Shown: in pieces, positions 6,166 through 54,859 of the stretch | How the letters are laid out: each line of letters starts with the position of its first letter | How positions within the stretch are numbered: position 1 is the first letter of the stretch | Source of the DNA: Pseudophaeomoniella oleicola | Taxonomy: Eukaryota; Ascomycota; Eurotiomycetes; Phaeomoniellales; Phaeomoniellaceae | Length of the DNA: 64,000 nucleotides | Direction: 5' to 3' | Assembly (NCBI GenBank): GCA_003868215.1 | Contig: QWDQ01000069.1 | Span: forward strand, 53,007-117,006 | Program-made: the position numbers and the translations under genes | Notes under the pieces: model-generated | Database searches by the model: none | Told to the model about the DNA's origin: nothing | What the model saw: the letters and a program-made list of their open reading frames with translations, nothing else

Positions 6166-6942
6166 GTTCTTTCATGCATATATCAAATGTGTGTGTACAA
6201 TTGATTATATATATATTATTACTAAATACTCTCTTCTACCTTTGAACAGTCGAAATCGAAATCGGAGCCGAAGTCGAGGTCGAGGTCGATCCATCATCTT
6301 GTCTACCTAAGATAGCTAAAGGACCTTGTGTATTCTTTTCAGAATAAAAAAAAAACCGCCGAGAAAAAAAAAAGAAGAGAAAAAAAGGGTGAAAAAAAAG
6401 GAAAAGGAAAATAGTCTCACACATCTTCCGTCTTAGTTGTTGGTATTTTTGTTGTTGTTGTTGTTATACACCCTTTTGTTTCTTCAAGTATTGTTCTGAA
6501 ATTGTCCCCCCCCCTTGTACTTGAGTACATACCCTGATCTAAAGAAATATTCCCCCTTTTTGTTTCCTCCTTCTGGATTATGTAGCATCCCAGTGGTACA
6601 GGTTGGTACAGATTGGTACATGGTGTTGGGCGTTCGCCCTCTGCGTCTCCTGCGAGCAGGTATTTTGTGAGAAGATGTTGAAATGAAAATCGAGGGTCCG
6701 AGATTAGGAGGATTCGTTTGTTGACGTCGATGTTTGGTATATGGACGGAAAGAGAGTAACCAGAGGGAAATCCGTAATATACATGGACGAAATGCGTTAA
6801 TGCCGTTAGTGACTCATGATAGGTGAAGAAGCCAGGCGAGGGATTGGTTGCCCGGGTGCTGGCGTCAGAGGTTTGACTTCGGCTTCACATCCTGCAAATG
6901 ACCGAGAAGATCTCGACGACAGCCATATTGATGAAACGATTC

Positions 6943-8839
6943 CTAGAAGACGTACTATAATTACCTACGTTAGTAATGGTCGTCCAACATAGAGCATAAG
7001 GCAGAACACTCACCGGAATAAAAATATACGGTACAAGCCTTTCATACTCGGTCCAGGCCTCTCCGTACTTCCTCCTGCAACGCTGAGTATCTCGGATGGT
7101 ACGGTGGATGATCATACAGAAAAAGAATACAGGATAGAACCATGGGAAGGGGGAGTTGAATCCAGTCAGAAGGGCCCAAGTCACAGCGAAGAAAAAATCG
7201 CACGTATAATGGATTTTGCGAGCTTTTCCGTACCAGCCGTCTGCGAGAATTGTGCCTGCGGGAGACTTGATGATGCGTGGATTCTCGACCGTTTGCCATG
7301 GGAGTTGAGGGAATGTCTTGCGAGGGGTGTCATCGCCGGTTTCCTGACTGCGAAAGCGATTCTTTTGGCTGTTTGTGGTATCCCAGACCCAATAGACCAG
7401 CGCATAAGCGATGTACCAAACGATCATCACGAGCCGGGGCCAGTGATAGTTTTGAGGATCGTGGTTGGCAATGTAGATGGCAGCATGGCAATAACTCAGA
7501 GGGACCCCAGCCATATTCCAAAAGGCGAGCATGAAGCCAAGTTTCTCGTAATACATATCCCAAGATGTAATGATACATTCTTCACCCTTGCAGCAGGCAT
7601 TTGCGTATAGCCAGTGGGCGAATATCAAAAGCCCAACTTCGGCGGAGACGTAGCCATATTCTTTATACTGTCGTGCTGCAGCGCTGACGCTGACCGAGAG
7701 CAGGATATACCAAGGAATGCGCACCTCGAAGAACATCTTGAAGTCAAGCCAGTAGAAAAGACGAGGATTGAGTTCCGCGCCCATGAAGAAGTCGTATACC
7801 GGATAGCCAGTCAATCGATGCTGCCTTCCACGGAGCATAGCAGATAGGTAGAAGTAAAACGACATCAAGAAACCGCTTAGAATCGCGACACTCATCAGTG
7901 GTCCGAACTCGTCGATGATGGTTTCAATTTTGAAAAGCCCAGTGAAATGAAGGCCTGCAAAGATTGCAATGGTTGTGTAGAAGGACCAGACACCAGAGCA
8001 GTAGTAGTCCATCTTTTTGCCACCTTCGTGTCGGAGAGGTTTCCCCTTCTTGTACACGCCTGGTAGGCATAGATAGAAAATCATTTCAACGATAAAGAAC
8101 GTCCAGTACATCGCCCATGCCTTCGCCGTTGGGTATGCACCCGTATATATAAGATGTGCTAAGTGCTTCAGAAAGTCGACGAAACCCTGATCATGCTCAC
8201 GAGTAGGAAACTTGCCATCGTAATAGGTTGCTCCTACCCACATGTAGTACATCAAAGTTGGGAAACCGATCATCATTGCTGAGACGCCCCAAGAACCTCC
8301 AAATTCATAATGGGGGTTGTAGTCAATCTTGGGGTCCAGTCCAGGGGCCCAGCCATCGATGAGTATCTGCTCTTCCTTCGCAGCGCCATTTGCATGGCCA
8401 TTGGCATGACCATTAGCATAACCATTAGCATGACCGTTGGCGTGACCGTTGGCATGACCGTTGGCATGACCGTTGGCATGACCGTTTGCATGACCATTTG
8501 CAGTGCCGTTTATATGGCCATTGGCGTGGCCATTGCTCTCTTCCGCGACTCTAGTCGACTTCCTCTTCCTTGCGGATTTCGCGTTCTCCCCAGGCACCTC
8601 AATTGTGTCAGCGACGTCTGTCGCCGAATCGGTCGCGTCCTCGGAGTCGCTCCTCAATTCTGAAGCAGGGGATTTCCGACCGCGGGTCTTGCGACCTGGT
8701 GTCTCCACGAGATATTCAGGGAACGACGTCTTCCTAGGAAACGCTTGTTAGTACATCATGTGAATCAAGCCACATAACGCGACACGGCGCAAACGACTTA
8801 CTTAGGAGTCTTGCCCGACTGAGTTCGAGTAGTCGGCAT
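6943..8839 (-). CDS. ERG4: Delta(24(24(1)))-sterol reductase, last step of ergosterol synthesis
   Basis: Erg4 reduces the C-24(28) double bond of ergosta-5,7,22,24(28)-tetraenol to ergosterol in the ER membrane. Three exons fit: 8839-8802 ([12 protein letters not shown]), 8733-7014, and a 12-nt last exon 6954-6943 (YVF, stop). The final intron has a TACTAAC branch point, and splicing restores the family ending VPYIFIPYVF. The product is 589 residues with about eight or nine hydrophobic helices. The ERG4/ERG24 signatures are visible: [23 protein letters not shown] and [15 protein letters not shown]. The reading frame stays open from 8708, but that codon is GTG, so the ATG at 8839 with an upstream intron is preferred. 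The N-terminal cytosolic tail carries an expanded Asn-Gly-His-Ala repeat (about residues 75-125) that is not part of the enzyme fold. Confidence 0.92.
8389..8530. repeat. 12-bp tandem repeat coding for NGHA units in Erg4
   Basis: About eleven imperfect 12-nt units (plus-strand core CCGTTGGCATGA and variants). They encode the NGHA run in the cytosolic tail of Erg4. The unit length is a multiple of three, so copy-number change keeps the frame. The last-position differences between units are mostly synonymous. Confidence 0.9.
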
Positions 8840-9319: not shown

Positions 9320-11617
9320 TCATGCGCCTCTCCGAGCACTTGAATTGGACATCAACGTGATCTTCTTGTTCTTCTTCTTTCGTGCACCACCTGAAGGTGT
9401 AGACGATTTCGAACCTTCTGCTACGATGCTGGCCTCAACCAATGCCACAGCGTCATCCTGATCGAGAACGTCTTTCTCCCAGTCTTGCAGCCAGCCATCA
9501 TTGATGGGCCCATAATCGGTTATTGTATCATCTTGAGGCGAGGGTGGACGAACAGCGACCGTGCCCCAAACTGTTCTAGGTGTATCTGGACTTGTCCCCG
9601 GACTGGCCAGCGTAGCAAACGCCGATTGAGCCCTGCTATTTTGCCACGGAGGTGACGTCGACAACGCACCTTCATCTACAGACTGAGAGCCAGACACAGA
9701 CGCTAGAGGCTGGAAGTCATTGTCCGAAAACCCCTTCTCAGCAATGCTTGGCCTGCGCCGTCGGGCTGCTGCATACCGTTTATCTTCTTCTTTCTCTGCC
9801 CTCAATCTTTCCTTCTCCTCACGCTCTTCCTTCTCCAGATTGCGCCTACGCCTGCGCTCTATTTCTGGACTGAATTGTTCCAAGAACTCCGGATTGACAG
9901 AGCCGGTCCAGTCGCACTCTAAAAAGCTTACTTCGCACCCGTAGGGCAAATGGGCAAGATATTTTGCCCTCTTTCTCAAATCATCATCAATCACATGGCC
10001 AGTCGAAATGTGTTCTATACGCGGTAAAATTGTCGTTGGAAAAGAAGAGAAATCGCCGAAAGCTGCTCGGAGTATTCGAATATCGAGTGGAGACAGGTAG
10101 AAGTTGGGAAGTGCTTGGTAAAAGAAAAAGGGCGACCCTTGTGGTCGAGGTGGCGGGTGCGAAGCTTTATTTATCGATTTAGAAGATGAAGATGCTTGTT
10201 CAGGAGTGGTCGCAGCAAAGTCGCCGATACGGACATCAGCCATAGCATCGCTAATCTGATTGACCTCGGAAGGTACTGAAGACATCGTCGAGTCGGTGGC
10301 GGCAAATGATGCTTCAGAGCTGTCCAGTAGTCTACGCGTAGAATTCATGTCTGAGGCGGGCGATTCCATGTCCAGTACGGCGTCCGTTGCTATTTCAGAT
10401 GGAACGGGTGCCTTCTGAGCCCTACGGTCTGCTCTTTCTTTCGGAGGTGGCGGGTTGCCCATTCCCTTCATCTTCTCTTTAGCATCTGCAATAGCGGCCA
10501 CTGCTTTTCGCGTCCATGTCGGATCATCACCGAAAATCAATTCGTCTTCCCTTTCCTGTTCAGTGAGCACATCAATCTCGGAATCGAATTGCGCCACCAT
10601 GTAGTCTTCTCCACCTTTCATGAATCGAGCGTAGTCCATTACCTCTGCGACATGAAACCAGGGGATGTCTTCTGTTGGAGGCTCGACATCTGCGGCATCA
10701 CGAGGCAAGGCAAGCGTGCTACCCGGCTCTCGCTTCAGCAGTCTTAGTAATACATCACCGCCTTCTCTGAGCATGCTCGCTTCTTGGCCCTCGAACCAAC
10801 GGACCGGTCTTGTCTCGGAGATATATATACTGTCCTCACATATCGCGCATTTTTTCCATCTCGCTCGTTTCTCTGGTACCGTGTTCGTGCCATCTGTTGA
10901 ATGCATGTACCTTATGAGGCAAGGTAAGCAATAGATATGGCCGCATTTGGCCATGCGTGGTGCCACAGGAGGCGAAAGACAGATTGGGCAGCTCGCCAAC
11001 TGTGTTTGAGCTGAAGCGAGGACTTGCAACACGGCCTCCCAGTCGAGATGGACATCTGCATCAACTGCCTGCGCGTGATAGTCTCTCTCTGGTCGAACGA
11101 TGAAGCGGTAGTTGGCATGAACATATCTCGCCTTGTCTATGGCGTGATAACCGGAACCAAGGCCCCAGGTGGGATTACGTCTCTGGTGGCGATAGTTGTA
11201 CTGCGGTTGATATTGGGGTCGAGGAGGCAGAGCAAAGTTCATGAGATGTGTAATGGAAGTTTGACCCTTGCGACTGTTGATGGACTTCATAGCGGCCTGA
11301 GTCATGGTTAACCAAACGAGCGCCGAGGTATAGAGCATGCTGCTGCCACTTACAGACTCCGCAATGGCATCCTCATCCACCAGCCAGCGTGACTTCTTTT
11401 GAGGCTTATGCTGTTTCCTCTGAGACTGGTTGTTCCGGGGCGTAGGACTCCTAGGACTCGACCCCGCCGCAAAGCTTCCAGAGCTTCCGCTTCGCCTCTG
11501 GCTCCCGGTATCGAAAGACGAGGTTGTAGGGCCCTGAGAGAATGAAGCAGAAGACGGTTGAAGATTGCTACCAGAGCTCTTAGTCGAGGAGGGTACTATA
11601 ATGGGAGTGGAAGACAT
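9320..11617 (-). CDS. RNF10/Mag2-family RING E3 ubiquitin ligase
   Basis: RNF10 (yeast Mag2) mono-ubiquitinates 40S proteins such as uS3 and uS5 on stalled or defective ribosomes. The protein is about 746 residues after removing a 57-nt in-frame intron (11353-11297, GTAAGT...CTCAG), which joins DEDAIAES to AAMKSINSRKGQ. The order is: a Ser-rich disordered N-terminus; a basic patch (KQHKPQKKSRWL); LMNFALPPR; the conserved ANYRFIVRP strand; and a C3HC4 RING (SCPICLSPP...KCGHIYCLPC...KKCAIC, spliced residues about 191-241). Later comes the RNF10-specific block FFYQALPNFYLSPLDIRILR, RAKYLAHLPYGCEVSFLECD, and a charged coiled coil (ERRRRRNLEKEEREEKERL). A C-terminal Lys/Arg-rich end follows. The start is the first ATG. 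It is head to head with the USP10-type deubiquitinase at 12430, its known functional opponent. Confidence 0.87.
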   Translation of the reverse strand: MSSTPIIVPSSTKSSGSNLQPSSASFSQGPTTSSFDTGSQRRSGSSGSFAAGSSPRSPTPRNNQSQRKQHKPQKKSRWLVDEDAIAESVSGSSMLYTSALVWLTMTQAAMKSINSRKGQTSITHLMNFALPPRPQYQPQYNYRHQRRNPTWGLGSGYHAIDKARYVHANYRFIVRPERDYHAQAVDADVHLDWEAVLQVLASAQTQLASCPICLSPPVAPRMAKCGHIYCLPCLIRYMHSTDGTNTVPEKRARWKKCAICEDSIYISETRPVRWFEGQEASMLREGGDVLLRLLKREPGSTLALPRDAADVEPPTEDIPWFHVAEVMDYARFMKGGEDYMVAQFDSEIDVLTEQEREDELIFGDDPTWTRKAVAAIADAKEKMKGMGNPPPPKERADRRAQKAPVPSEIATDAVLDMESPASDMNSTRRLLDSSEASFAATDSTMSSVPSEVNQISDAMADVRIGDFAATTPEQASSSSKSINKASHPPPRPQGSPFFFYQALPNFYLSPLDIRILRAAFGDFSSFPTTILPRIEHISTGHVIDDDLRKRAKYLAHLPYGCEVSFLECDWTGSVNPEFLEQFSPEIERRRRRNLEKEEREEKERLRAEKEEDKRYAAARRRRPSIAEKGFSDNDFQPLASVSGSQSVDEGALSTSPPWQNSRAQSAFATLASPGTSPDTPRTVWGTVAVRPPSPQDDTITDYGPINDGWLQDWEKDVLDQDDAVALVEASIVAEGSKSSTPSGGARKKKNKKITLMSNSSARRGA

Positions 11618-12429
11618 TGCTCACGGCCAAAGAGCAACGCGTTGAATCGAGGTGGAGGAGGGGTGGATAGGGTAATACCGGGAGACTGAGATCATGCAGA
11701 TCCGGTCACGATGCCTTTCGAGACTCTTCAAGATGTCAATTCTCAACAGTAGTATGATCAAAGTGGCTGGACATGAGCAGAGGAATGATATGTGATTGCA
11801 TCAGATCCCCCGAGGGCCGAGGGGTAAAGGTAACAGTAACAGTAACAGTAACAGTAACGAGCCAAAAGGACCCTGGTAAAGGGAAGACGAAGGGCAAACG
11901 TATGACATCTCCGAGTCTTGACCCTTCTCCACCCAAATCGTGCACGGCCAACCTTAACTCGCGAAAAACATCTCACCGAGCAGTTCCAAAAGGTCGAACT
12001 TCCTAGGAAGACGACCAGCTCATCATTTGTTGCCATAGTTCACATCTCCCTCATCGTACCATTTCTTCGATTCTTCAGCCACCATTAGGCTCTCTCTCAA
12101 CCGTCTTTTACTTTTCGCTCTTGTTTCGACCTACCTAGGCCCCCAATTTCCATAACCGCACGAGCTGTTGCGAAACCTCCCAGATCCAGAATCACTCCGT
12201 CACTTCTTTCCCGCTTTGCGTCCGTCTACTAATCCTTACGTCGACATGGCTTCTTGCGCAACTTGAGGCTTTTCCAAATCCTTGCGCTACTGGTCGGGAT
12301 GTCGCCACGTTCTCTTTGAACGGCCCTCCACCACACCAACCCCAAGTGTTTATTCGGTCAGTGACGGATGCTATCTCGGCGGTGCGAGGTAGTGGCAGTT
12401 GAGGTGAGGAAGAGAAACAACGAGCAATA
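11618..12429. promoter_or_regulatory. Bidirectional promoter of the RING ligase and deubiquitinase, with three uORFs on the deubiquitinase side
   Basis: The 812 nt between the two start codons contain a GTAACA hexamer run (about 11828-11857). On the plus strand there are three short upstream ORFs before the deubiquitinase: 12246-12266 (6 codons, MASCAT), 12299-12319 (6 codons, MSPRSL) and 12368-12430 (20 codons). The last stop overlaps the main start as TAATG. Whether these are in the mature leader depends on the transcription start and any leader intron. Confidence 0.6.
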
Positions 12430-15273
12430 ATGAACCATCATCCAATGTCGCCCTATGGGCAACCACCGGCATACCCTCCAAGGCGACAACACGATATGCC
12501 TTATTCTCCTTTACCACCAAACATGCGGCATCAGCCTTACCCGGGTTATTACCCGCCTCACATGGGCGCTCCTATGCCACCATACCCTCCACAGCACTAT
12601 CAACCCAACTGGTTTCCCTACCAGCATATGCCGCCGCAGATGGCTCCGCCGCCACGGCAGTATCAGCCACCCCAGATGCAGCATCACCAACATCCTTATC
12701 AGCCTCTAGTGGTCTCCTCGTATCCTGTCGCTCAACCGCAACTTTCTCCGGTACATGTTCCCCCACCAGCGCTGATCCCACAGCCATCTCCTCAGGTCAC
12801 GCAAATGCCTATCAGACCTCTAGACAAGCCTACATCCCCTGGTCCTCCGTCAACGCCGAGTTCCGTCAATAACGTACAAGACACCCCCAGAACCTCATCT
12901 GCAGCGTCTCACATTTCTGAAAATGCATTGAGTGTGAACCCTCCCTCCGAAGCTTTAACGAAGGATCCTTTCGAGCCTCCTTTACCATGGCTTTCGGTGA
13001 CCGACCAACCCTTTCCTGCCAGAGCCAGAAGACGGAGACGTAGGGTCATCACTCCGCAGTCAGATACAGATCCTGTTCAGTTCCCATATCGGGTTCTCGT
13101 ACAAGTTCCAACTTCTGAAGACGCGTCCGGGACTGTTCTAAGTGAAGCTACTCCGAACGTAGTCCACAATGCGGTCTCCGTACCCGCACGTGAGGATAAT
13201 GCTACGCCTCAGACATCTGTGGCAGAATCGGAAAACGACTCTACACAACCGACGACCCCTTCTTCGGCTGTTCCAGTCACCGAACAGCGATCTCAGATGA
13301 CTCCCACCCAAGCCAAAGCTTCACGTGCCTTCGCTCCTGCTGTGCCAGTGGTACCAGCAGTACCAACGAGCCCTGTAGCGCCGAAGACGCAACGTCGAGG
13401 CTCTGTTGGTTCAGTAACGTCCAAGGATACTTCAGTGGCACAGGTGAATGTTCAGGGGGGAAATGATACGTCAGATGTGGCCGGGACAGCCAGTACAATC
13501 ACTTCGCCTGGTGAAGAGGCAGCTACACCACGTTCTCCTTCACGAGCCCCAAAATCGTGGGCAGACCTTGTCCGTTCCAAGGCGCCTGCACTCACCTCGC
13601 AGGCCATGCCTGCCAGTGGCGACCTTGCAACAGCGGTACTTGGTTCTTCCAAATCAGATTCACTAGCTGATGCGCTTGCGACCATGTCTTCCGATGCTGC
13701 ACTTCGTCCGGAAAAACTTTCCTTCCTCGAACCGAAAGGTCTTGTAAACACTGGAAACATGTGTTATATGAATTCTGTAAGGAGATGCTCACTTTCCTCA
13801 ACCTTTGATTTTACTAACAGCTTTAGATTCTTCAAATTCTTACATTCTGCGTACCCTTCTATGAGTTCCTAGATCGCCTCAGTCGCGAGGCGGTTCACAG
13901 CTTTAAGAGCGATACTCCACTAATTGATGCCATGATCTTATTTACGAAAGAATACCGAGTCATCGACTCAGCTACTTCTGCAGAACAACTGAGGCAACGT
14001 CTGAAACAAGCAGAGCTTGAACAGTATGGCGATGCTTTCACCCCTGAAAATGTATACGAGGTCATAAGGACGTTGCCGCGATTCCGCGATATGCGAGTGA
14101 GTAGATAACGTTTCCAGTAGCGGTCTACAATTTGCTAATGATGCGATGTTTTAGCGCGGACACCAGCAGGACGCACAGGAGTTTTTGGGTTTCTTGCTCG
14201 AGGAACTTCACGAAGAGTGCGCATTGGCCATGAAAAAGGCCAGTGCACCCGGATTCGAACAGTCGGCCGGTTCGGTCACTGACGATGCCGGATCTCAGAA
14301 AGAGGCCGATGGTTGGATGGAAGTAGGTACTAAGCAGAAAGCTTCCACCACCCGATCCTCTGGTATCGTTGGAACAGAGTCCCCCGTCACAAAGATATTT
14401 GGCGGGAAGCTTCGCTCTGAACTGCGGATACCAGGTGTTAGACAGTCCAACACTGTCGAGCCTTTTGAATCTCTACAGCTTGACATTGGCTCACCACAAG
14501 TTAACTCTATCATCGACGCCCTAAAAGGCCTTTCCAAACCCGAGGCTATTCCAGGCGAATTCGATTCACCACGGGGCAAGGTGAATGCCACAAAGCAGGT
14601 ATATATCGAGAAGCTGCCGCCTGTATTGGTTCTCCATCTCAAGCGTTTCCATTACGATTCTGCCACCAAACGTACGGAGAAAATCTGGAAAAAGATTGGG
14701 TATCCTTTGAACCTTGAAATCCCAAAGGAAGCTTTCCCTCCTCAACTGAGGAACAAGATGCTCAACCATGGTGGCATCCCCCAATATCGTCTTACGGGTG
14801 TTATTTATCACCACGGTAGCAATGCCAGTGGTGGGCATTATACTGTTGATGTACGCCGTCAAGACGGAGTAGAGTGGATTCGACTTGATGATACCATTAT
14901 TCGACGCATTCGCGCGCAAGATGTTGCTGAGGGTGGCAGTGAGGAGGACCCTAAGATCCTAGCTGCAGCGCTTGAACGTCATAAGAAGCAAGCGAAGGTG
15001 CCGATCAATGGCAATATGTATGACTCCATTCACGGAGAGGACGAGGAGGACGACGGCTCGGGGGGAAAGGGCTGGAGCCAGGTGAACGGCACTGCCGGTG
15101 GACATTCCAGAACCAAGTCGACTCTTAATTCAGCCAACGGGTTTGCCACACCAACAACCGCGAAAGACTCGTCCGGTCAACAAACTCCAAGCCAAAAGCT
15201 TGCTTCTGGCGGTATCAAAGATAACAAAGTCGCCTACTTGCTATTCTACCAGAGAGTAGGCAGTGCTGCCTGA
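12430..15273 (+). CDS. USP10/Ubp3-family ubiquitin-specific protease
   Basis: Ubp3/USP10 removes ubiquitin from 40S ribosomal proteins and from trafficking and ribophagy substrates. Three exons fit: 12430-13776, 13827-14096 and 14155-15273, with introns of 50 and 58 nt that both end in TTAG. The 911-residue product has a Pro/Gln/His-rich disordered N-terminal third. The Cys box is GLVNTGNMCYMNSILQILTF, with Cys445 as nucleophile. The QDAQEF box (RRGHQQDAQEFLGFLLEEL) crosses intron 2. A long insert follows, then LPPVLVLHLKRFHYD, and the His box YRLTGVIYHHGSNASGGHYT with His767. LLFYQRV closes the fold. The length is close to yeast Ubp3. Both introns interrupt the catalytic domain, so the unspliced frame stops soon after the Cys box. 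It is divergent from the RNF10/Mag2-type ligase, and its leader has three uORFs. Confidence 0.92.
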
Positions 15274-16832
15274 TTTACGGAGGGGTTTTGTTGTCATGGC
15301 TCCTTTAGCAAAGGCACCAATCTACAATTACTCATATTATTTGGGATGTAAATGACGGGCATGCAAGGACTCTATTCGAGCGACGGTACTCTCATCAGCG
15401 CTAGTCCGGGTTCTGCGGTCCCATCTGGTTCATGTACAAAAAGTCAGGCTCGCTCAGAAGCGGAGTCGTAGAGGAGTTGGGGAACATAGTAGGGAGAAAG
15501 CTGCGATGTGATGATGTAGCGGTGGATGAGAGTATAGTAGGAGTAGGTGAAGATAGCATGAGACTACAAGAGGCGACTAATGATGATCATTAAAACCATG
15601 TTCCCCTAGTCATCGTCATTCGCACATTGATAAAACCGATGGTCCTGAGGAGGCCTTCCAAGCCTCTTGGTCCAGGAGTATTCACAGATATCTTCAATGT
15701 TCTGCATCACCTAGTCCGCTCACAGTGGCGTTCTCGTTCCCAACTTCTAGGCCGTGGATTCATCAGCATCACTCAGCAGAATCTTGGTCGATGCAGAAGA
15801 CCAGAATCAGGCAGCGGAGAAGGGGCAAAAGTACCATTCGCGACGATGATCTTCGACATGCTAAGATAAAGTGAGTATCTATATTTCAAATCCCTTTCCG
15901 ATGCCCTCACGGTAAGGTTATGGGCAATCTGACACCGTGCATATATCCAACTAGTTGGGGGAGTCATTCGTTAAGGAATTACTCAGCATTGCTTCAAGCC
16001 GGCCAGTCGGGGTTGCTGGGATTACTCAGCCACCCGAGTTGACTACAGTCCATGTCTGCAATGGCAATCGCTAGATCAACCTCATCCCAGTCTCCAAGAA
16101 GCTTGGTCGTCTTACTTCCTGGTGCGCCTCTGGGTTCAATATACGTCACCGTTGTTTCCTGCACACCCATTTCTCGCCGTAGAACACGACCGCTTGCTCT
16201 ATGTTCGCGGTCTATAATTGACAACATCCTGAGTGCCATCCTACATTTGTATTCGAGACAGACGACTAGCCACGGAAAGGCCTGCATCGGCCCGGCGGAC
16301 ACCAAAGGACTGCGACTGATTACAAACTAGATGAACTACCTTTGTCAATATGGCTTCTCGTACGACAGGGGTCGACGATGCCTGATGCGAAATGTCCTCA
16401 CGGCATCTATCTGTTCCTTCTCTCTCTCTCTCTATCGCCTCTCTTGTAAAAGGTGTCAGCCTTCGCTTCCCAAATAGCTTTTGCTACACGTTCTTAGTGC
16501 ATATATAAAGGCCGGGATGGGCGAGTGCAACTGCATGATGCCCGGTTCAGATGATGCAGAGTCACATCGAAGCTGACCTCCTTCAATGTCGCACTGCGGT
16601 AAATGCGAGTTGGTGATCAGTTCAGCATTTGTCACGTCTTTTCGATTGGATCGCATTTCGTCAATCGTTGCCACGCCCATCTCAGGTATCCATTATACCT
16701 ATCCTGGACAGGATAAGCCCGAGCTCGTTCTGACCGTCAGGGCTGGGATCTCAGCCAGACAAGGAGGAGCTCACGGGTATTTATAGGGGACCGCAGTCCG
16801 TCAGGAATTTCCTTCATAAGCTTCAGGTCATC
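15274..16832. other. Intergenic with one weak minus-strand ORF
   Basis: This 1.56-kb stretch has no recognised gene. A TC-rich run lies at about 16420-16445. The one frame that looks protein-like is listed separately at 15994-16305. Confidence 0.5.
15994..16305 (-). CDS. Possible orphan or remnant ORF, function unknown
   Basis: A 103-codon frame whose second half looks like a real protein (MGVQETTVTYIEPRGAP, then KTTKLLGDWDEVDLAIAIAD). It begins at a non-ATG codon, so a true start would need an upstream exon or the internal ATG in GPMQAF. I do not recognise a family. It may be the 3' exon of a small gene or a decayed fragment. It lies 500-800 nt upstream of the Zn2Cys6 gene on the opposite strand. 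Confidence 0.25.
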   Translation of the reverse strand: MVSAGPMQAFPWLVVCLEYKCRMALRMLSIIDREHRASGRVLRREMGVQETTVTYIEPRGAPGSKTTKLLGDWDEVDLAIAIADMDCSQLGWLSNPSNPDWPA

Positions 16833-19069
16833 ATGGACGATCCGCATTCAGAGCCATCCCCTAGGGCCGCCGAAACTGCGGCGAGGCCGCAAGGGCCGCC
16901 ACCCGCCCCCAGACCTTGTACCAATTGTCGGAGACGGAAGGTACGATGTGATAAGAACGAGCCTTGTGCCAATTGTGTTCGGTCAGGAAACCTTTGTGTA
17001 TATGATGGGTTCGCTCCAAAGTCAGCTGAGACTGGTCTGTCCCGTGATTCGGTCGTAGCCTCAGAGCTGCGAGACCGAGTTTCAAGGCTGGAAGGTCTGA
17101 TTGAGAGTTTGGCAGGCATGAGCATCAGAGATACATCATACCTTCGGCAGGTCGGGGTGACACCAGGAGGCTCGGGGTCGACAGTCTCAATAGCCCCGCC
17201 CCTCGAAAACAGGGATGCAGTTCAGCTGCTCGGAAGAGAAATCTTTGACGCTGAGTCTTCGGTCTACATCGATTCCAGTGCCTGGTCAGAATTGTTCGAA
17301 AGAGTAAGTTTGCTCTAATTAATTAGGGCCTGCTTACACAACAGGAATTATCTAACAATCTCCGGAGGTCGAAGGTCTTAGGTACTGGTTGTCAACTACG
17401 CAGCCTTTAGTCACCCCAGCCGGATTTGCATCGAGTTCTCTTGTATTCAACTTGGGCCACGACTCATCACACCTTGATCCAAGTTCCCATGCATCAATAA
17501 AGAAAAGCGAGCTGATATGCAAGATCTTCTGGCGAATTGTAGAACCTTTCATCAAAGTACTCCACAGACCCAAATTTACTAAAGACCTTGAGCTTTATAG
17601 GCGTCTTTCCCATCCGTCGCAAGCGGATTTTGAAGCGTTACTTTTCGCCATCCACGCACTGACCATTGCAGTACTCCCAGCAGCTATTGTGCAACAGGCA
17701 TTTTCCGAAGAAAAGAATGGCATGCTGGGGCGCTTTCACAAAGAGGCGGAAACAGCGTTGGCTAAAGCGAATTTCCTCACCTCGCGGAGCGAGATTTCTT
17801 TCCAAGCATTACTTTATTATGTGGTGAGAGAAGCTCCATCTCGGCGGCGTTCATTACATTGTTGATCCAATACAGACTCTGCTCTATGAAAGAGGGCAAT
17901 ACGACACCGCCTCGTCCATGTCCGGCCTTGCATTACGTATCGCACAGCGTTTAGGCTTACAATATGATCCCTCAAACTATAACTATACGCCATGGAATTG
18001 TGAATCGCGAAGAAGAATGTGGAATCACGCAGTTTACCTGGACTTCAGGGCACTCACAATATGCGCTGCAGAGCCAGTGACCGCCATAGCACAGGGTCGA
18101 GCGCCACAACCGCCCGCTAATCTAGATGATAGTGATTGGGAAGGATGTCGCTTCGCAAAGAAGACTTCTGTCAGTCAATCCGCACTCGGTTTCAAGGAGA
18201 CCACTTTTGCGATCTTGCGCCGGCAATTGAGTTCACTCTACAGGCGCATTACACAAGCCAGCCTAAGTTTTGAGGCTTCTCAAGCTCTGATCGGCCAGAC
18301 AAGAGTGGCCACTGAGCAAAGCTATCTAAGTCATTTCGATTTGCAACATCCGCTGCATCAGCTTGTAGCAGCCCTCATTCGGCAACATTTCAGTCTACTT
18401 GACATCATTTCAAGACAGATCTACCTCAAGCAACACAAGCCCTCTGCCAGGTCGGGTTCGATCACTGGCATCCACCCAACCTCAGCGCCGAAAGCTCACA
18501 CCTTTCGCCACAGCCTCTTTTTGATGTCTCTTGCACATCTGGAAGATACATCAAGGCTGGAAGCAGAGTACTCCAGATATAAATGGCAATGGATCATTCG
18601 GGACCCTGTGCCGTGGCATGCTATCGCGAGGATCCTGACCGATCTCTGTCACCTGTTCGAAGGGCCGGACGTTGAGCGGGCTTGGAAACAGATCGATCTC
18701 GTATGGGAACGTTACGGTGAAGAGAACGGAGCTCTGGTAGATACTCCGATTTTCGCTCCCCTGAGTTCGATGCGAGCACAGGCGCTTTTTCGGGTTCAGA
18801 AATACCGAGAAGGAGAGACATGGGAGAAAGATGACGACGACAATGTCTTGGAAGCGACTGATCCTCTCCAGTCAGCGGGCCAATTTGGTAGTGCACCATT
18901 TGCTGGGACCTATGCGACGTCAGATCTAGATCTCTCCAGCCAAGAACAGTTTCTTGACATGTATTCGGAGCAATCTTTGGCAGGGCCTAGTGACTTTGGC
19001 AGTGCTTCCTTCCCACATATCCTAGGTGAGGGGCCGCACGACTGGCCATTTGGGGAAGGATCGCAATAA
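16833..19069 (+). CDS. Zn2Cys6 transcription factor with fungal-specific regulatory domain
   Basis: A nuclear DNA-binding regulator of about 706 residues. Exons are 16833-17303, 17368-17823 and 17876-19069. The binuclear zinc cluster is at about residues 30-56 (CTNCRRRKVRC, then CANC and C), with C2-C6-C5-C2-C6 spacing. It is followed by a short dimerisation coil (ELRDRVSRLEGLIESL). The middle-homology domain includes LICKIFWRIVEPFIKVLHRP, GLALRIAQRLGL and RRRMWNHAVYLDFRA. The acidic, Gln/Ser-rich tail may activate transcription. Intron 1 is placed at ...CCGGAG so that VEGLRYWLSTTQPLVTPAGF follows; the nearer CAG would hit a stop. Targets are unknown; the plus-strand dienelactone hydrolase and feruloyl-esterase-like genes downstream are the nearest candidates. 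Confidence 0.88.
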
Positions 19070-27551: not shown

Positions 27552-29279
27552 TTACCTGACTTTTTCAAACCAGATCACCTGATCTCCTGCCGGTATGAGG
27601 TGGATGCCCACCTTTGCAACCCTCCCTTCTGCATCCAGGTTGAACTCCGCCTTCACAGCATTGCGAGCGAATAGTACAGACACCGTAGTGTCGGTCCAAG
27701 CAACAAAATATTCCCCCGAGACGTGTTCAAGGTCCAGCGTCACATTCACAGTGCGGTGTAATTCTGCATGAAGCACGTGTTCTGTATGCTCTGCAACCGG
27801 AAGCCGGGGAGGAGGCTGACCAATACTGAACGTGATGTCGCGGTATCCAGGATGATAATAAGTGCCCTCATATTCCGATAAGGGGAGAGCAAGGGGTAGT
27901 GGTGGGTTCGGAATACGCGGGTATAGAATCGTTCGTCCGTTCTCATAAGAGGTCAGCATCTGTTCGTCCGATGCGTCCATCTCCGGGATCATGTCGTAAC
28001 GCTCGTTTGCAGGGATATTGAGGACGTCGTCGAGCAGTCGTAGAAACAATGCATCTATGGCATGGCTACCATGAACATCGTTATTGCTCATCATCGCAAC
28101 GCCCCAGCGACAAGATGGCATGAACGCAAGCCTTGCGCTGAAGCCGGTGATGGCTCCCGCATGCATCACAACCGAATTCCCACGATAACTGGTGACGGAC
28201 CATCCAGCTCCATATAGAGGCGGAGAGGTGTGTGGGAACTGCGTTGGCTCATCCATCAACATCCTGGGTTCGACGAGCTCTCGTTGCGCGGTGGCAGAGA
28301 GTGGCAAGGTCTTATCAATCATCGCGTGAAGATATCTCGAACAGTCGAGAACTGAGCTTATGATGCCGCCACCGCCAACCAGCTGCGTGTCCAGCCAGGG
28401 TTGATGGTAGTGCTCATGGCTCCTGTCATCCCAAGAATAACCGTACGCAAATCTACTTCCACTTTCTTTTACACTTTTGAGAGCATCTGAGAGACGTATG
28501 AATGTTGAACTCATGGACAAAGGGCGCCAGATCTTCTCGTGGTGAGAGTCACCTATCCAGCGGCCTGTGAGTGTCTCGATAATGTGTTGGATAACCATGT
28601 AACCAAGGTTGAGATATTGAAATGCTCCTCTTAGTTCCTCAGTCATGGGCAGATGGCGGAGCGAGCGTATCGCATCACGGACAGTGAAGTTAGGGCCATC
28701 ATAGCTCATATCATGGCCAGGGAAGCCGCCAGGAAAGCCCAATCTGTGGGTAAGTACATCTTCGATAGTAGCATGAGCGGTCGCATATTCATCAGGTAGC
28801 ACGAAATCAGCAGGAAGAATCGTTGAGACTCGGCTTCTCAAGGAGAGTGGATTTTGTGACTGAGAAGTGTCTTCAAGAGCCAGAAGCAGAGAAGCTGCTG
28901 TGAAAGACTTCGTGATTGATCCAACGTAGTACAATGTCTCCGGGGTAGCCTCAATGTCTGGTAATACGGCATAACCATAGGCCTGAGACAGTTAGATTCT
29001 TTGTGGGCTCCAATCCGGCGGAGCACACCGTAGTAGTACATCGGTAAAAGTATTATCCATATCTACGACGGCCACTGAAAGACCAGGAGTATGAAAGTGC
29101 TCCAGAATCTGCAGCGCATATTTCTTGAAGCTCGCGTTGAGAGGACTGCGATCTGTGTGTTCCACATAAGCGCTGCATGCTGAGCTCTCTTTCAATGGCT
29201 TTTGGGATGCTGCCGAAGAGCAAGTTGCGAGAACCAAGAAGATGATGAACCTGAACGAAGCGCTAACAAACGAAGTCAT
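27552..29279 (-). CDS. Secreted beta-lactamase/class C PBP-type serine hydrolase
   Basis: A serine hydrolase of the beta-lactamase superfamily (Pfam Beta-lactamase, class C/esterase EstB-like). In fungi these act as esterases, lactonases or transesterases rather than in antibiotic resistance. Exon 1 (29279-29040) encodes a signal peptide (FRFIIFLVLATCSSAAS). The 57-nt intron (29039-28983) joins NTFTD to AYGYAVLPDIEATPETLYYV, and exon 2 is 28982-27552; the product is 556 residues. The SxxK motif is SITK (about Ser102/Lys105), the YxN motif is in FQYLNLGY, and the third motif is HAGAITG. A C-terminal lipocalin-like beta domain follows (YEGTYYHPGYRDITFSIG). It is divergent from an MFS exporter with 464 nt between starts. 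Substrate is unknown. Confidence 0.86.
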
Positions 29280-29743
29280 ATCGGCGATAAGAGTGGCAGA
29301 CTGAGATGCAATGAGAATGTGGATCAATTCTCGGTCCTGCGACATTTCACTTCGACACCGCCCGCGCCACCCCCGTCGCTTACTACGTAGTAATTTATGA
29401 ATGCTGACAACCTCGACCAATGCGGAGAGAATACACGTGACTTGGATAGAGAATGTCCTTCCTTTTCGGGCCGTACTTATTGAATTATTATCACAGTAAA
29501 GAAGACGAGACGGGCGGAAAGCCGATCTATCCGTTTATCTTGAGAATACCGTCGTAAATCTATGATGCAGGCAGTGATGGGTCCACTCACCGCGCATCTC
29601 TTCGCTCGAGATCATTTCAGAATGCCTCGTTTTTCCTTTTTCTTTTTTTGGCCGTGTGTATTTCGGCATGGCGTGTCGGTCAACAGTTTCAATACTGCGA
29701 TTTTGTACAAGATCTCAGTCGGAAGTATAAGTATACAAAGCAG
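29280..29743. promoter_or_regulatory. Shared promoter of the beta-lactamase-like gene and the DHA1 pump
   Basis: A 464-nt divergent spacer. It contains one exact TACTACGTAGTA palindrome at 29381-29392, the same 12-mer arrayed at 26264-26563. Confidence 0.55.
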
Positions 29744-31603
29744 ATGACCACAACCGAGGAGGATGTCTCGTCAACATCGAGAACCATGTCACGCGACCAT
29801 GAAGGTCGACATGGAGAAAGTCCCTCGGATCCTTCTCATGCTGCAGTCGTTCCGGAGACCGGCAGTGCAAGTTCGATAGACCGAGATGATGGATTAGATA
29901 GAGTCCGGACTACTCTCGACCAAGAGCTGCCTCCAGAGACCATCCTGACGACAACCATATCTGGTCCTCCGTATTCAATCTTCACGAAGAGACAAAAGCG
30001 GTTCATCGTGTTCATGGCAGCTTTCGGTGCTTCTTTCTCACCGATTTCCGGAAACATCTACTTCCCGGCTCTAAATGTGCTGTCCGTGGATCTCGGTGTT
30101 TCCAATGCGGACATGAACCTGACATTGACAACATATATGATTTTTCAGGGTCTTGCACCTAGTCTGATGGGAGATCTTGCCGATACTGCCGGGCGGCGGC
30201 CGGCATATCTGCTGTGCCTCGTCATCTATGTTGGCGCGAACATTGGTTTGGCGTTGCAGAATAGCTATGCTGCCCTCCTTGTCCTTCGCTGTCTACAATC
30301 AGGTGGGAGCGGGGCCACTCTTGCCTTGGCTTCCGGTATAGTTGGAGACATATCAACTGCTGCTGAGAGAGGTACCTATCAAGGTGTAGCAACTATCGGT
30401 TCCCAACTAGGCCCGAGTCTAGGCCCTGTACTCGGTGGATTACTAGCAGAATTTCTTGGCTGGAGATCCATTTTCTGGTTTCTCATCATTCTTGCAGCTG
30501 TCTTTCTGCTACCATTCACGCTTTTCTTTCCAGAAACAAGCCGGAACGTCGTTGGCAATGGGTCGATCGCTCCCCAGCCGTGGAACATGACCATCACTTC
30601 GTATCTGAAGCTTCGCCGTCTGCGGAAAGAGCAGGAGAACAGTTCAACGGCAGACGACCTGCATGCTGTACAGTCTCGATCATCCGTACGTAAAACACGG
30701 AAATTTCGGTTTCCAAATCCGTTGGCCTGCTTCCGGATCTTGTCCCACCCTGCGACATTCATGTTGTTGGTATACAATGCGTTCTTGTTTTCCTGTTTCT
30801 ACTACATTCTGTCAACGATACCACCACAATATGCGAAGATTTACGGCTTCAACACCTTGAAAGTAGGATTATGTTACATCCCATTTGGCATCGGCGGATC
30901 TACGGCCGCTTTTGTCCACGGACAGATACTCGATTGGAACTTCAGGCGGACGGCGCGAAAGCTCGGGATGAAAGTAGACCGAAAGCGACAAACAGATATG
31001 CTCAATTTTCCAATTGAAAAGGCGCGCCTGCAAATTTCGTTGCCACTCCTGTACGCAGCCCTTTCTCTATTGCTGATATACGGCTGGGTACTTGAAATTC
31101 AGAGTCCACTGGCAGCACCACTTGTTGTGCTTTTCTTCCTGGGTTACTGCATTACGTCCAACTTCAACACGTCCCAAACGCTGCTCGTAGATTTCCATCC
31201 GACCACTCCTAGCACAGCGACGGCGGCCAATAACCTTCTAAGGTGTCTTTTAGGAGCTGGGTCTTTGGCTCTGCTGGATCCAATAATCGATGCCCTGGGG
31301 ATCGGAGGGACATTCAGTCTACAGGTAGGTATCTTGGTTGCCCTCAGTCCGCTTCTTTGGGTATTATATTTCAAGGGAATGAAGATCAGACAAAAGAGTT
31401 ACGCGAAAGCGAAAGCGAAGGAGGCAGAGGACCGGGGAAGCAGGGACGGATCAGATAAGGCGCCTACCGTTAATGTACCTGAAAGGAAGCATGAAGAGGA
31501 GTTACCGCAACGAGCTGTTGAAGGCATGACGGAGACTCAAGGGCCTCAACTGCGAGAAAAGGGACCTCAAGCAGACTTGGAGGCTGGAGTTATCCAGTCG
31601 TAG
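29744..31603 (+). CDS. MFS transporter, DHA1 drug:H+ antiporter family (Qdr-like)
   Basis: A plasma-membrane proton antiporter of 619 residues without introns. It has a hydrophilic N-terminus and twelve predicted helices. Motif A is GDLADTAGRRP after helix 2, and motif C is the helix-5 region GSQLGPSLGPVLGGLLAEF. A long central loop (about 90 residues, ending RKTRKFRFPNPLACFRIL) and an insert with DWNFRRTARKLGMKVDRKR in the second half are typical of Qdr-like fungal DHA1 proteins. The frame extends upstream to about 29648, but MTTTEEDVSST at 29744 is the better start: the extra stretch is not family-like. The C-terminus is a charged cytosolic tail. Divergence from a secreted hydrolase suggests co-expression in handling a xenobiotic or own product, but that is inference. 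Confidence 0.87.
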   Translation: MTTTEEDVSSTSRTMSRDHEGRHGESPSDPSHAAVVPETGSASSIDRDDGLDRVRTTLDQELPPETILTTTISGPPYSIFTKRQKRFIVFMAAFGASFSPISGNIYFPALNVLSVDLGVSNADMNLTLTTYMIFQGLAPSLMGDLADTAGRRPAYLLCLVIYVGANIGLALQNSYAALLVLRCLQSGGSGATLALASGIVGDISTAAERGTYQGVATIGSQLGPSLGPVLGGLLAEFLGWRSIFWFLIILAAVFLLPFTLFFPETSRNVVGNGSIAPQPWNMTITSYLKLRRLRKEQENSSTADDLHAVQSRSSVRKTRKFRFPNPLACFRILSHPATFMLLVYNAFLFSCFYYILSTIPPQYAKIYGFNTLKVGLCYIPFGIGGSTAAFVHGQILDWNFRRTARKLGMKVDRKRQTDMLNFPIEKARLQISLPLLYAALSLLLIYGWVLEIQSPLAAPLVVLFFLGYCITSNFNTSQTLLVDFHPTTPSTATAANNLLRCLLGAGSLALLDPIIDALGIGGTFSLQVGILVALSPLLWVLYFKGMKIRQKSYAKAKAKEAEDRGSRDGSDKAPTVNVPERKHEEELPQRAVEGMTETQGPQLREKGPQADLEAGVIQS

Positions 31604-32135
31604 TGTGCTAGCCAACGGCACCACTATTGGCAAGGCCGAACAGGTATTCATTTCCTTGCCAGTACGGGCCTGGAGTATTAAGAAAGGGCTGAGGTGGTCA
31701 CAACGCCGCGTTGTCCTATTAGCTTCGGCATTCATAGGAATGCTTCGACGATTATGCAATGACTCAACGAACATATTCTCTTCCATGTCGGGAATCCAAC
31801 TATATTTAGAACGAGTTACTAACCTTATGTCTGACATGTAGCAGAACGAAATACTGATCCTGTAAGTACCATGAGCATCGTTGGATGTAAACTCATCTTC
31901 CGCTCGGGTCTGGGCAGGTCATGGATGCTTAGTCATCTTCAACTATTACATAATCGTGCGATCTCGGAGATCAAAAATTAGATGCCGAATGCGTACCTTG
32001 CATATCATATCACCGTCACGAAAAACCGTGTTGATTTCAGACATTTCACGCCCGGTCATCAAGTCTCCAGTACTTAGTAATTGTTCTCGCGTTCGTGAGT
32101 GATAATACTCTGTTGCCTGCCAGATTTTGACCCCG
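31604..32135. other. Intergenic, no gene seen
   Basis: This 532-nt stretch between the MFS gene and the deformylase has only short shadow frames. Confidence 0.5.
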
Positions 32136-33194
32136 ATGAAATCACCGGCCGTGGTGGTGTCAAGAGCAGTAACACAGACGACCTCATCACTGACCAGAAG
32201 GAACTTCTTCATCCAATCTGCTAATAGTACGCCGCCGCCGCTCTTGAGCCGATCCTTTATAGAAAGAAGAAGAAACATGGCTTCAGCAGCAGCACCACGG
32301 ACATCCAGTGACCATATCTTAACACTGTCATGTCCGGATCGGCCAGGGATCGTTCACTCGGTCACGGGCCTCTTGGCCAAGCGGCACCTGAATATTTTAG
32401 ACTCGCAGCAATTCAGCGATCCGACGTCCAAGAAGTTCTTTATGAGAGTGCATTTCGACAAGGAGGATGGTAGCAGCAGGGATGCCGAAGCTACTACTAC
32501 TGGTACCAAAAGCCTGGATACGGAGGAGTTGCAACCGCATTTCGCGGATCTGGCCAAGGATCTCAACATGGAATTTGAATTACGGCCCGTAGCACAGAAA
32601 CCGCGGGTGCTCATCATGGTGTCCAAGATCGGACACTGTCTCAACGATCTATTATTCCGCCAATCGACGAACCAACTCCCCATCGAAGTGCCCCTGATCG
32701 TCTCCAACCACCCGGACTTCAAACCCCTCGCCGACAGCTACAAGATCCCCTTCCACCACCTCCCCGTCACCGCCGACACGAAGCAACAACAAGAGAGCGC
32801 AATCCTCTCGCTGATCGAACAACACAACATCGACCTCGTCGTGCTCGCGCGCTACATGCAAGTCCTCAGCCCCAAACTCTGCACCCTCATGTCCGGCAAA
32901 ATCATCAACATCCACCACAGCTTCCTGCCCTCGTTCAAGGGCGCCAAACCCTACCACCAGGCCTACGAGCGCGGCGTCAAGATCATCGGCGCGACCGCCC
33001 ACTTCGTCACCGCCGACCTCGACGAAGGCCCCATCATCGAACAGCGCGTCGCCCGCGTCGATCACGCCATGAGTCCCAAGGATTTGACCCAGGAGGGCAG
33101 TAATGTCGAGAGTCAGGTGCTCGCCGCCGCTGTCAAATGGGTCGCCGAGAAGAAGGTGATTCTGAACGGGCATAAAACCGTTGTATTCAACTGA
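32136..33194 (+). CDS. Formyltetrahydrofolate deformylase (PurU type)
   Basis: The enzyme hydrolyses 10-formyl-THF to formate and THF in one-carbon metabolism. From the ATG at 32136 it is 352 residues. The first about 47 are rich in Arg, Ser and Thr with no acidic residues (SRAVTQTTSSLTRRNFFIQS, SRSFIERRR), a typical mitochondrial presequence; the ATG at 32277 (MASAAAPRTSSD) would give a cytosolic form. The ACT regulatory domain follows (ILTLSCPDRPGIVHSVTGLL). The formyltransferase fold has VLIMVSKIGHCLNDLL, the catalytic INIHHSFLPSFKGA (Asn and His) and ATAHFVTADLDEGPIIEQ (Asp). The second half (about 32640-33100) uses almost only C- or G-ending codons, unlike the first half. No intron is needed. 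Confidence 0.92.
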   Translation: MKSPAVVVSRAVTQTTSSLTRRNFFIQSANSTPPPLLSRSFIERRRNMASAAAPRTSSDHILTLSCPDRPGIVHSVTGLLAKRHLNILDSQQFSDPTSKKFFMRVHFDKEDGSSRDAEATTTGTKSLDTEELQPHFADLAKDLNMEFELRPVAQKPRVLIMVSKIGHCLNDLLFRQSTNQLPIEVPLIVSNHPDFKPLADSYKIPFHHLPVTADTKQQQESAILSLIEQHNIDLVVLARYMQVLSPKLCTLMSGKIINIHHSFLPSFKGAKPYHQAYERGVKIIGATAHFVTADLDEGPIIEQRVARVDHAMSPKDLTQEGSNVESQVLAAAVKWVAEKKVILNGHKTVVFN

Positions 33195-52761: not shown

Positions 52762-54859
52762 CTAACAAGACCACATCCTCCTCTTCTGCCCTCCCCCTTC
52801 CCCTCTCTCCCCTCCACTCTCTTCTCCTCCTCCATTTCCCCTCCCCTCCCTCCTCTTAACCCGAAGATTACTGCCCCAATACCACCCGATCTGCGCCGCC
52901 ACCGTCGCCACACACACAGCCGCAAGACACAACATGGCGGTGAAAGCGGTCTTGTACAAGGGAGCGTCGTGCGTGCGGAAGACTTGGCCGCCGGCGATCC
53001 CGGCGGCGTTTGCGGACATTATTATCATTATAGAAAAAAGGGAATGGGGAGGGTTAGTAAAAGGGGAAAGGAAAAAGGAGGGGGAAGGAGAAAGAAGGGG
53101 AGAAAGGACGTACGCCATGGCGATGGAGCGTTGGGGTGGGGTGTGGCAGTTTACGGAGAGCCAGGATACGTTCAGGATGCTGGACATGTAAAGTTAGTGA
53201 CGTTGATGGTATGCGGAGTCTTGTCGTTTTCATCGTTGCTCAAATGAATGGGATAGGACAGGAGAATGGGGAGCTAGACTTACTGGATCACTGAATTCGT
53301 CGCGTTTGCACACACGATGGCGGCATATCGGTTCCATTTCGCCCAGTGGATGGATCCGAAGAGACAGGCGTAGGCAACTAGGGACCAGATGGCGGCGATC
53401 ATGGTTGCCGGACCACGAAGACCAATACGATCACTGTTGTGCAATGGCGTATCTGTGGTTAGCTTTGGATGTGTTGGGGGTAGCGAGGAGATGTAAATGA
53501 ATAGCAAACCGAGTGGGAATGAGAAGAAGGGTCAAAATTGACACTTACGCCATGAACCCCAACAGCACAACAATCACGGCCGCACAGAAGTTTCCGACCG
53601 AAAACAACGCGTTCGCTTTGACTTTTGTGAAACCCAAGCTCTTGATGATCGAAGGCGAATACGTTTGCACCGCGTTCACCGAGATCGTCGATGTCAACGT
53701 GATCAGGACGTGGACCAAGATCCTGGGGTTGCGGACCGTTGCCCAGACATCTTTGCCGTGGATGGGGAGTTTCGAGCCAGATGTCTTGCCGGGATCGTCG
53801 AGGAGGACCCGACGTACGAGGATGTACTGTTCGCGGCTGGTGAAGTAGCTCCATTTCCCGAAGCTGATGAGTGGTTTACCGTTGCCGACGCCGGGAGGGA
53901 GGAAGAGGATGAAGATGATGCCGATACCGATTGTCATTACACCTTCGACTGCGCGAGGTTCTGAATTAGCCTTGCTCCCGAGCAGTGGGAAGACGAGAGG
54001 ATTCCATACTGATGAAAAGCCACCTCCAACCGGCCACTCCGTCACGCCCTGCCATGGTTAGGATCCCAGCTCCAATGAGGGACACCGTTGCCGCCGCAAG
54101 AATATTCCCGAGAAAGAAGATCGAAACGCGGAGACTGGTTTCGGACGTCTTGTACCAAGTTGACATGGTGTATAGCGCACCGGGGGTTGAGAGCTTTAGA
54201 ATTGATATCCCCCTGCCGGTTTGGGAGACCGATCGCTCACCTGGTATGAACCCTGCCTCGCACAGGCCGAGCAGGATTCGAGTTGCGAGGAAGCCTGCAT
54301 AGTTGGTCACGAAAGCCTGGAAGGTAGCGACTAGACCCCAGCTTATGATCTGAAAGGACAACCACTTTTGGGGACCGATCTGTGAAGCGTTCGAATACAA
54401 TCAACAACCTCTACTCGACAGTAGAGTATGATACAATCCCACATACCTTTTGAAGAAGGATATTTGAAGGAATCTCAAGAACGACTATTCCTGCTGACAG
54501 GAGACTGTTTCCCACATTGATTTGATTCGTCGTGACACCCAAGTCCTCCGTAATAGTATCAGTCAATGCATTGCCAATATTTCCACGGTCACACTGAAGA
54601 GCGAAAAAGGCGAGGCCCAGTATAGGAAGCAGGATGAAGTCGATCCTATTGCCCAATGTAGTAATTAGTATAGATAGGTAGGTATATATCAAACCCCGTG
54701 AAAGATACTACTAAGGACTAAAAGCAGAACTAACTTTCGTTTCGCTGAACGCTCTTCACTCTCGGTCCAATCGGGGGTAGTGTTTTCGGTAATGTTGACA
54801 GCGACCAGATCGTCCTGGCCGTCGACCTTTTGGCTGGCATACGTCTGTTGAGCCACCAT
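52762..54859 (-). CDS. MFS anion:cation symporter family permease (Dal5/Tna1-like)
   Basis: A plasma-membrane uptake carrier of the ACS family, which imports allantoate, nicotinate, pantothenate and similar anions. Exons are 54859-54735, 54645-54447, 54379-54010, 53948-53549, 53433-53284 and 53179-52762, all with GT-AG introns. Family marks are RKIDFILLPILGLAFFALQCDRGNIGNA, LLQKV-IGPQKWLSFQIISWGLVATFQ, ATRILLGLCEAGFIPG, WYKTSETSLRVSIFFLGN, GWRWLFIIEGVMTIGI and NVSWLSVNCHTPPQRSIAMA. Two in-frame segments (54240-54181 and 53113-53030) look like introns with a proper donor but no AG acceptor. Kept, the protein is 553 residues; removed, about 505, the usual ACS size. The tail after WYWGSNLRVKRREG is Gly/Glu/Arg low complexity, so the true 3' end may differ. 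Confidence 0.8.

Follow-up and report, generated by a model that had tools for sequence, protein, structure and literature searches.

The ubiquitin ligase RNF10 and the protease USP10 act in opposite directions on the small ribosomal subunit. RNF10 ubiquitinates RPS3 at K214, Mag2 modifies the corresponding K212, and ubiquitinated 40S subunits are rescued by USP10, according to the available sections of PMC11604940. Those sections, together with the excerpts of PMC12583759, support the opposed biochemistry of the two enzymes and bear out the claim, made in an earlier sequence-only reading of this DNA, that RNF10-dependent ubiquitin on uS3 is countered by USP10. For yeast Ubp3, the excerpts at hand report that it acts on monoubiquitinated uS3 (Jung et al. 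2017, cited in PMC12583759) and on Hel2-dependent chains (PMC11775340), and they also tie the enzyme to uS10 chains. Ubp3 further acts on uL23 in 60S ribophagy and appears dispensable for the starvation decay of 40S subunits (PMC8122580, in part), and in M. oryzae the 60S marker Rpl25 is lost through ribophagy in a Ubp3-dependent manner (PMC9104258, in part). Mag2-dependent uS3 ubiquitin serves the decay of 18S non-functional rRNA, not that of miscleaved 18S (excerpts of PMC11045238). The sequence-only reading had tied both yeast enzymes to the decay of defective 40S subunits; for Ubp3 that link is indirect and was overstated. Ligase and protease do oppose each other in the published work, though not exclusively: the protease has other substrates, and therefore a fixed RNF10:USP10 ratio would tune only part of its work.

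Adjacent pairs of ribosome-related genes are also described in fungi. In S. cerevisiae, 44 of 282 ribosome-biogenesis genes (16%) lie in adjacent pairs, counting all orientations, and such pairs in fungi are kept and co-regulated more often than random pairs (PMC3500266, as far as its text was available); neither MAG2 nor UBP3 appears in the main text of that paper. The locus described here resembles these pairs in its immediate adjacency and in its divergent orientation, one of the arrangements found there, and differs from them in that our pair is known from gene order alone. It is possible that the RNF10–USP10 pair is a new example of this known fungal phenomenon. The yeast MAG2 and UBP3 genes presumably lie on different chromosomes; no paper documenting their placement was found in the open-licence PMC literature, and no description of an RNF10–USP10 linkage was found among the titles and abstract beginnings listed for that literature.

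The window, by which we mean the whole analysed stretch of 64,000 nt, spans positions 53007–117006 of contig C79 in an assembly of 26.1 Mb in 112 contigs, and contains no N. Gene models built from the sequence place an RNF10/Mag2-type RING gene on the minus strand (9320–11617) and a USP10/Ubp3-type protease gene on the plus strand (12430–15273). Their start codons lie head-to-head, 812 nt apart (11618–12429), and the coordinates and opposite strands given in the sequence-only reading are confirmed. The RING gene consists of a first exon with its ATG at 11617 (11354–11617, residues 1–88), a 57-nt intron (11297–11353, GTAAGT...CTCAG) and a second exon with its stop at 9320 (9320–11296, residues 89–746). 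The intron is in frame, and the open frame of 766 codons gives a product of 746 aa after its removal. Exon 2 encodes the RING (residues 191–241) as well as the FYQA...LSPLDIRIL and YLAHLPYGCEVSFLECDW blocks. The protease gene has two introns and a product of 911 aa. Its first exon (12430–13776) encodes a Pro/Gln-rich N-terminus and the Cys box GNMCYMNS from residue 442. Intron 1 (13777–13826), exon 2 (13827–14096) and intron 2 (14097–14154) follow, and exon 3 (14155–15273) carries the QQDAQEF box, the WMEVGTKQK and IFGGKLRS blocks, the His box GGHYT from residue 765, RLDDT from residue 782 and the stop. The splice sites of both genes were read from the sequence alone. With the RING ligands and the Cys, His and Asp boxes of the protease preserved, both genes look intact.

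Each gene is followed by a tandem neighbour. Downstream of the RING gene lies an ERG4/ERG24-family gene (main frame 6885–8747, minus strand, assigned by Pfam), whose frame has an extended HANG-type repeat close to the N-terminus. Downstream of the protease gene lies a fungal transcription factor gene (16734–19069, plus strand), with a Fungal_trans match in its last frame.

The RING protein matches the Pfam model zf-C3HC4 at residues 191–241 (E 6e-07; 29.7 bits against a cut-off of 21), and so has the C3HC4 RING domain of RNF10/Mag2 ligases. No other Pfam model scored above its cut-off, and weaker RING models overlap the same match. A PDB search with a limit of E 1 gave 33 matches, almost all to general RINGs; BRCA1 ranked first (E 8.7e-05), and none was named RNF10 or Mag2. 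We compared the protein with two provisional pieces of human RNF10 that did not come from a database, the human protein being the only reference in this comparison. The RING-region piece scored 181 (maximum of 48 in 200 shuffles) and the C-terminal piece, which holds the FYQA...YL.HLP block, scored 167 (maximum of 52 in 200 shuffles). Like human RNF10 and yeast Mag2, the RING protein has a C3HC4 RING, and as judged against the provisional human pieces it appears to share the downstream FYQA/LSP..IR.L and YL.HLP..CE.S blocks and the basic coiled region after them. The two blocks that the sequence-only reading had quoted as RNF10-specific are present in the protein. Only two matches to it were found in its own genome, namely its own two exons, and no second copy was found in the 26.1 Mb. 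Single-sequence AlphaFold models, with mean pLDDT values of 53.0 (136 residues) and 39.8 (658 residues), were too poor for a fold search. We take the protein as RNF10/Mag2, an assignment well supported by leads and exclusion, and infer exact orthology.

In the 911-aa protein, a UCH domain at residues 437–803 (Pfam, E 1.1e-46), overlapped by a weaker UCH_1 match, is accompanied by the Cys, His and Asp boxes of a USP, starting at residues 442, 765 and 782. Against a provisional sequence of the catalytic region of human USP10, likewise not from a database, the protease scored 566, and seven other USP frames of the genome scored 64–202. It exceeds these paralogue frames at least 2.8-fold, in a comparison that covered longest frames only (L001–L006 and L008, with L003 represented without its Cys-box exon) and had the human protein as its only reference. 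A total of 24 UCH match rows was obtained for the genome, including the protease gene described here and cases in which several rows are exons of a single gene; further UCH matches stand outside the comparison. The next best relative of the protease in its own genome is 29% identical (E 2.2e-13), and no second copy was found in the 26.1 Mb.

The best solved relatives of the protease are USP12/46 (E 4e-21), and no USP10- or Ubp3-named entry appears among the best 60 of its 94 PDB matches. An identity as USP12/46 (CreB) was nevertheless rejected. The match reaches only E 4e-21, the protease has no CxxC pair, unlike the aligned USP12 chains, and a separate USP12/46 gene on contig C56 (L003) matches the same chains at E 2.6e-96 over 421 residues of its 662-residue frame, which argues that the window protease is a different enzyme. 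Like human USP10 and yeast Ubp3, it has a C-terminal UCH domain behind a long N-terminal region, with intact Cys, His and Asp boxes and no CxxC pair, and it shares with the provisional human USP10 sequence the W.EVG.K.K and IFGG..RS blocks and EKLPPVLVLHLKRF. It differs from USP10 in that its sequence contains no FGxF, the form of the G3BP-binding motif. A PDB search with residues 1–427 gave no hit at E values up to 10, so that no Bre5-binding segment was recognised. The assignment as USP10/Ubp3 is well supported by leads and exclusion, and exact orthology is probable. The two identities proposed in the sequence-only reading are upheld to this extent, the provisional human sequences counting as a lead only.

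As a separate observation, the RNF10-type protein contains FGDF at residues 501–504, and the FGxF count in the protease is zero. The count expected in RNF10 from composition is 0.003, and the letters FGDF are those of the G3BP-binding motif of human USP10. Since the motif lies inside the C-terminal block common to the provisional human RNF10 sequence, it may be a structural coincidence.

Other components of the 40S pathway are found elsewhere in the genome. On contig C1, the uS3 gene retains the EPK acceptor lysine. Its product aligns ungapped, residues 6–187 on 47–228 of the double-length chain 9p8h and residues 6–190 on 47–231 of single-length chains such as 4kzx, both of which we take to be mammalian-type uS3 chains, and in both alignments the EPK lysine falls on residue 214. 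The idea that the equivalent of yeast K212 is lost in filamentous fungi was rejected on this basis. The lysine is also kept in PDB 7r81 and 7olc, the best matches among single-length chains and presumably those of Neurospora crassa and Chaetomium thermophilum, respectively; on this ground we take the DNA to come from a filamentous ascomycete. A tail QPxSQDYGAK after the EPK lysine (C1:893749–894048, L011) is common to the window genome, 7r81 and 7olc. The uS5 N-terminus has a KSEEKEW block, in the region where we take the human RNF10 sites to lie. Contig C94 carries a candidate gene of the Bre5/G3BP type, with NTF2 matches in two exon frames (Pfam, E 8.2e-18 and 8.8e-05), a weak RRM_1 match (15.3 bits, where the cut-off is 20.7) and a tail that looks RGG-rich on visual inspection. 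The genome thus appears to encode the writer and the acceptor lysine together with candidates for the eraser and the cofactor, and the pathway chemistry is plausible.

The 812 nt between the start codons were scanned for promoter elements. Pyrimidine-rich 40-nt segments precede each gene, at approximately 11650–11690 on the RNF10 strand and at 12038–12130 and 12198–12242 on the USP strand. They do not fix the start sites, because the RNF10 strand is equally rich at the far end of the region (12390–12429). The minus strand has two copies of GATGAG, which we take to be the core of the PAC motif, 31 nt apart (12024 and 12055), against 0.37 expected from mononucleotide shuffles; both sit in the USP-side half. 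AGGGG (2 against 1.74 expected), CCAAT (1 against 1.58) and GATA (1 against 2.21) are no more frequent than expected or nearly so. The 812 nt contain neither the complete PAC octamer nor any of the RRPE, CRE, HSE and TATA patterns tested, and the scan gave no strong known motif common to the two sides. Short upstream ATG frames occur on both sides. The region also contains a perfect microsatellite, (GTAACA)4.8 at 11830–11858, which could vary between strains. These elements do not distinguish one promoter from two; because of its length, the region most likely holds two separate, possibly overlapping promoters.

To place the arrangement in its surroundings, we used a gene order sample of 20 calls, hand-picked from 41 frames of at least 170 aa with the help of Pfam scans on 20 frames. 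Pfam matches support all but three of these calls, and adjacent frames were joined into one gene where this seemed justified. The 19 neighbouring pairs comprise 4 divergent, 4 convergent and 11 tandem pairs. The divergent spacings are 23, 512, 812 and 1196 nt, of which only 812 was measured between start codons; the others separate the ends of stop-to-stop frames and are hence lower bounds. Neither the orientation nor the spacing of the RNF10–USP10 pair is unusual in the window.

Beyond the window, no relative of RNF10 was confirmed in prokaryote genome contigs, searched with the whole protein and with two conserved stretches, or in viral contigs, and no relative of the USP was confirmed in viral contigs; these prokaryote and viral collections are uninformative for fungi. 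For M. oryzae, UBP3 is given as MGG_05996 in a review table (PMC9599802) and MGG_05995 as a translin-family protein (PMC11481914), in the parts of these sources that were available. MGG_05994 is listed as unknown, and MGG_05997 and MGG_05998 are absent from the open-licence PMC papers found. The translin matches of the window genome lie on contigs C61 and C2, not at the USP locus. If MGG tag numbers follow chromosome order, as we assume, translin adjoins UBP3 in M. oryzae and lies on other contigs here, which hints that one flank of UBP3 may differ between the two genomes; an RNF10 gene could lie on the other M. oryzae flank.

The reading that we prefer, at a probability of roughly 0.6, is that of two ordinary, intact 40S surveillance genes that are neighbours in divergent orientation. 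The adjacency itself is a fact, and it may be neutral. This reading draws on the gene models and domains, on the lack of a second copy of either gene in the genome, on the identity leads and exclusions, on the uS3 lysine, the uS5 block and the candidate Bre5/G3BP-type gene, and on the ordinary frequency of divergent order in the window. The enzymatic roles of both proteins in this fungus are predicted from their sequences. RNF10 would monoubiquitinate uS3 on stalled 40S subunits, most likely at the EPK lysine (human K214), and perhaps uS5 as well; the USP, which probably works with a partner of the Bre5/G3BP type encoded on another contig, would remove ubiquitin from 40S subunits and from other substrates. 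Counted against this reading are two sets of published results, each taken from part of its source: the pairing is not functionally arbitrary, since RNF10 and Mag2 modify corresponding lysines of uS3 and ubiquitinated 40S subunits are rescued by USP10 (PMC11604940), and fungal ribosome-related pairs are kept and co-regulated above random pairs (PMC3500266). The pair could instead be a selected writer-eraser module, close to the shared promoter and fixed ratio put forward in the sequence-only reading: expression of RNF10 and USP10 would be coupled through one bidirectional promoter, so that uS3/uS5 monoubiquitin would stay reversible under translation stress. We regard this as possible but doubtful. 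It fits two intact genes that have no second copy in the genome, the presence of the acceptor lysine and of the candidate Bre5/G3BP-type partner, and the precedent of paired ribosome-biogenesis genes in S. cerevisiae. The excess of GATGAG cores would also suit it, but both cores lie on the USP side, neither RRPE nor a complete PAC octamer is present, and 812 nt are long enough for two promoters; the translin gene numbered next to M. oryzae UBP3, with its matches on other contigs here, likewise speaks against a selected module. A further-reaching proposal seems to us unlikely: that the divergent linkage of RNF10 and USP10 is ancient in Pezizomycotina, and that a promoter common to both holds their ratio constant and in this way determines when stalled 40S subunits are rescued and when they are degraded.

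It is far less probable still that one of the genes was misidentified and is a member of a different RING or USP family, with no writer-eraser relation between the two. Such an error would agree with the general RING and UCH models that were all Pfam gave, with PDB matches that include no RNF10- or USP10-named row (all 33 for the RING protein and the best 60 of 94 for the USP) and have BRCA1/TRIM RINGs and USP12/46 as the best solved relatives, and with positive evidence that rests on provisional human sequences. It is opposed by the margin of the C-terminal block of provisional human RNF10 over its shuffles, by the lead of the protease over seven paralogue frames against provisional human USP10, and by the genome's own USP12/46 gene and the missing CxxC pair.

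The finding gains interest only if the linkage is old, and is otherwise modest. Should the linkage be old and the genes co-expressed, it would provide genetic support, independent of the work in human cells, for RNF10 and USP10 as matched writer and eraser, and in a haploid fungus a single change between the genes would affect the two arms of 40S surveillance together. Should the pair reflect a local neighbourhood only, its relevance is confined to annotation.

Two further observations concern the same window. At 27552–31603, a beta-lactamase-family frame and an adjoining frame with no Pfam match face an MFS transporter frame in head-to-head orientation; measured between the ends of stop-to-stop frames, the gap is only 23 nt. 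At 32106–33194, Pfam identifies a protein with ACT and formyltransferase domains, which we take to resemble the bacterial formyltetrahydrofolate deformylase PurU.
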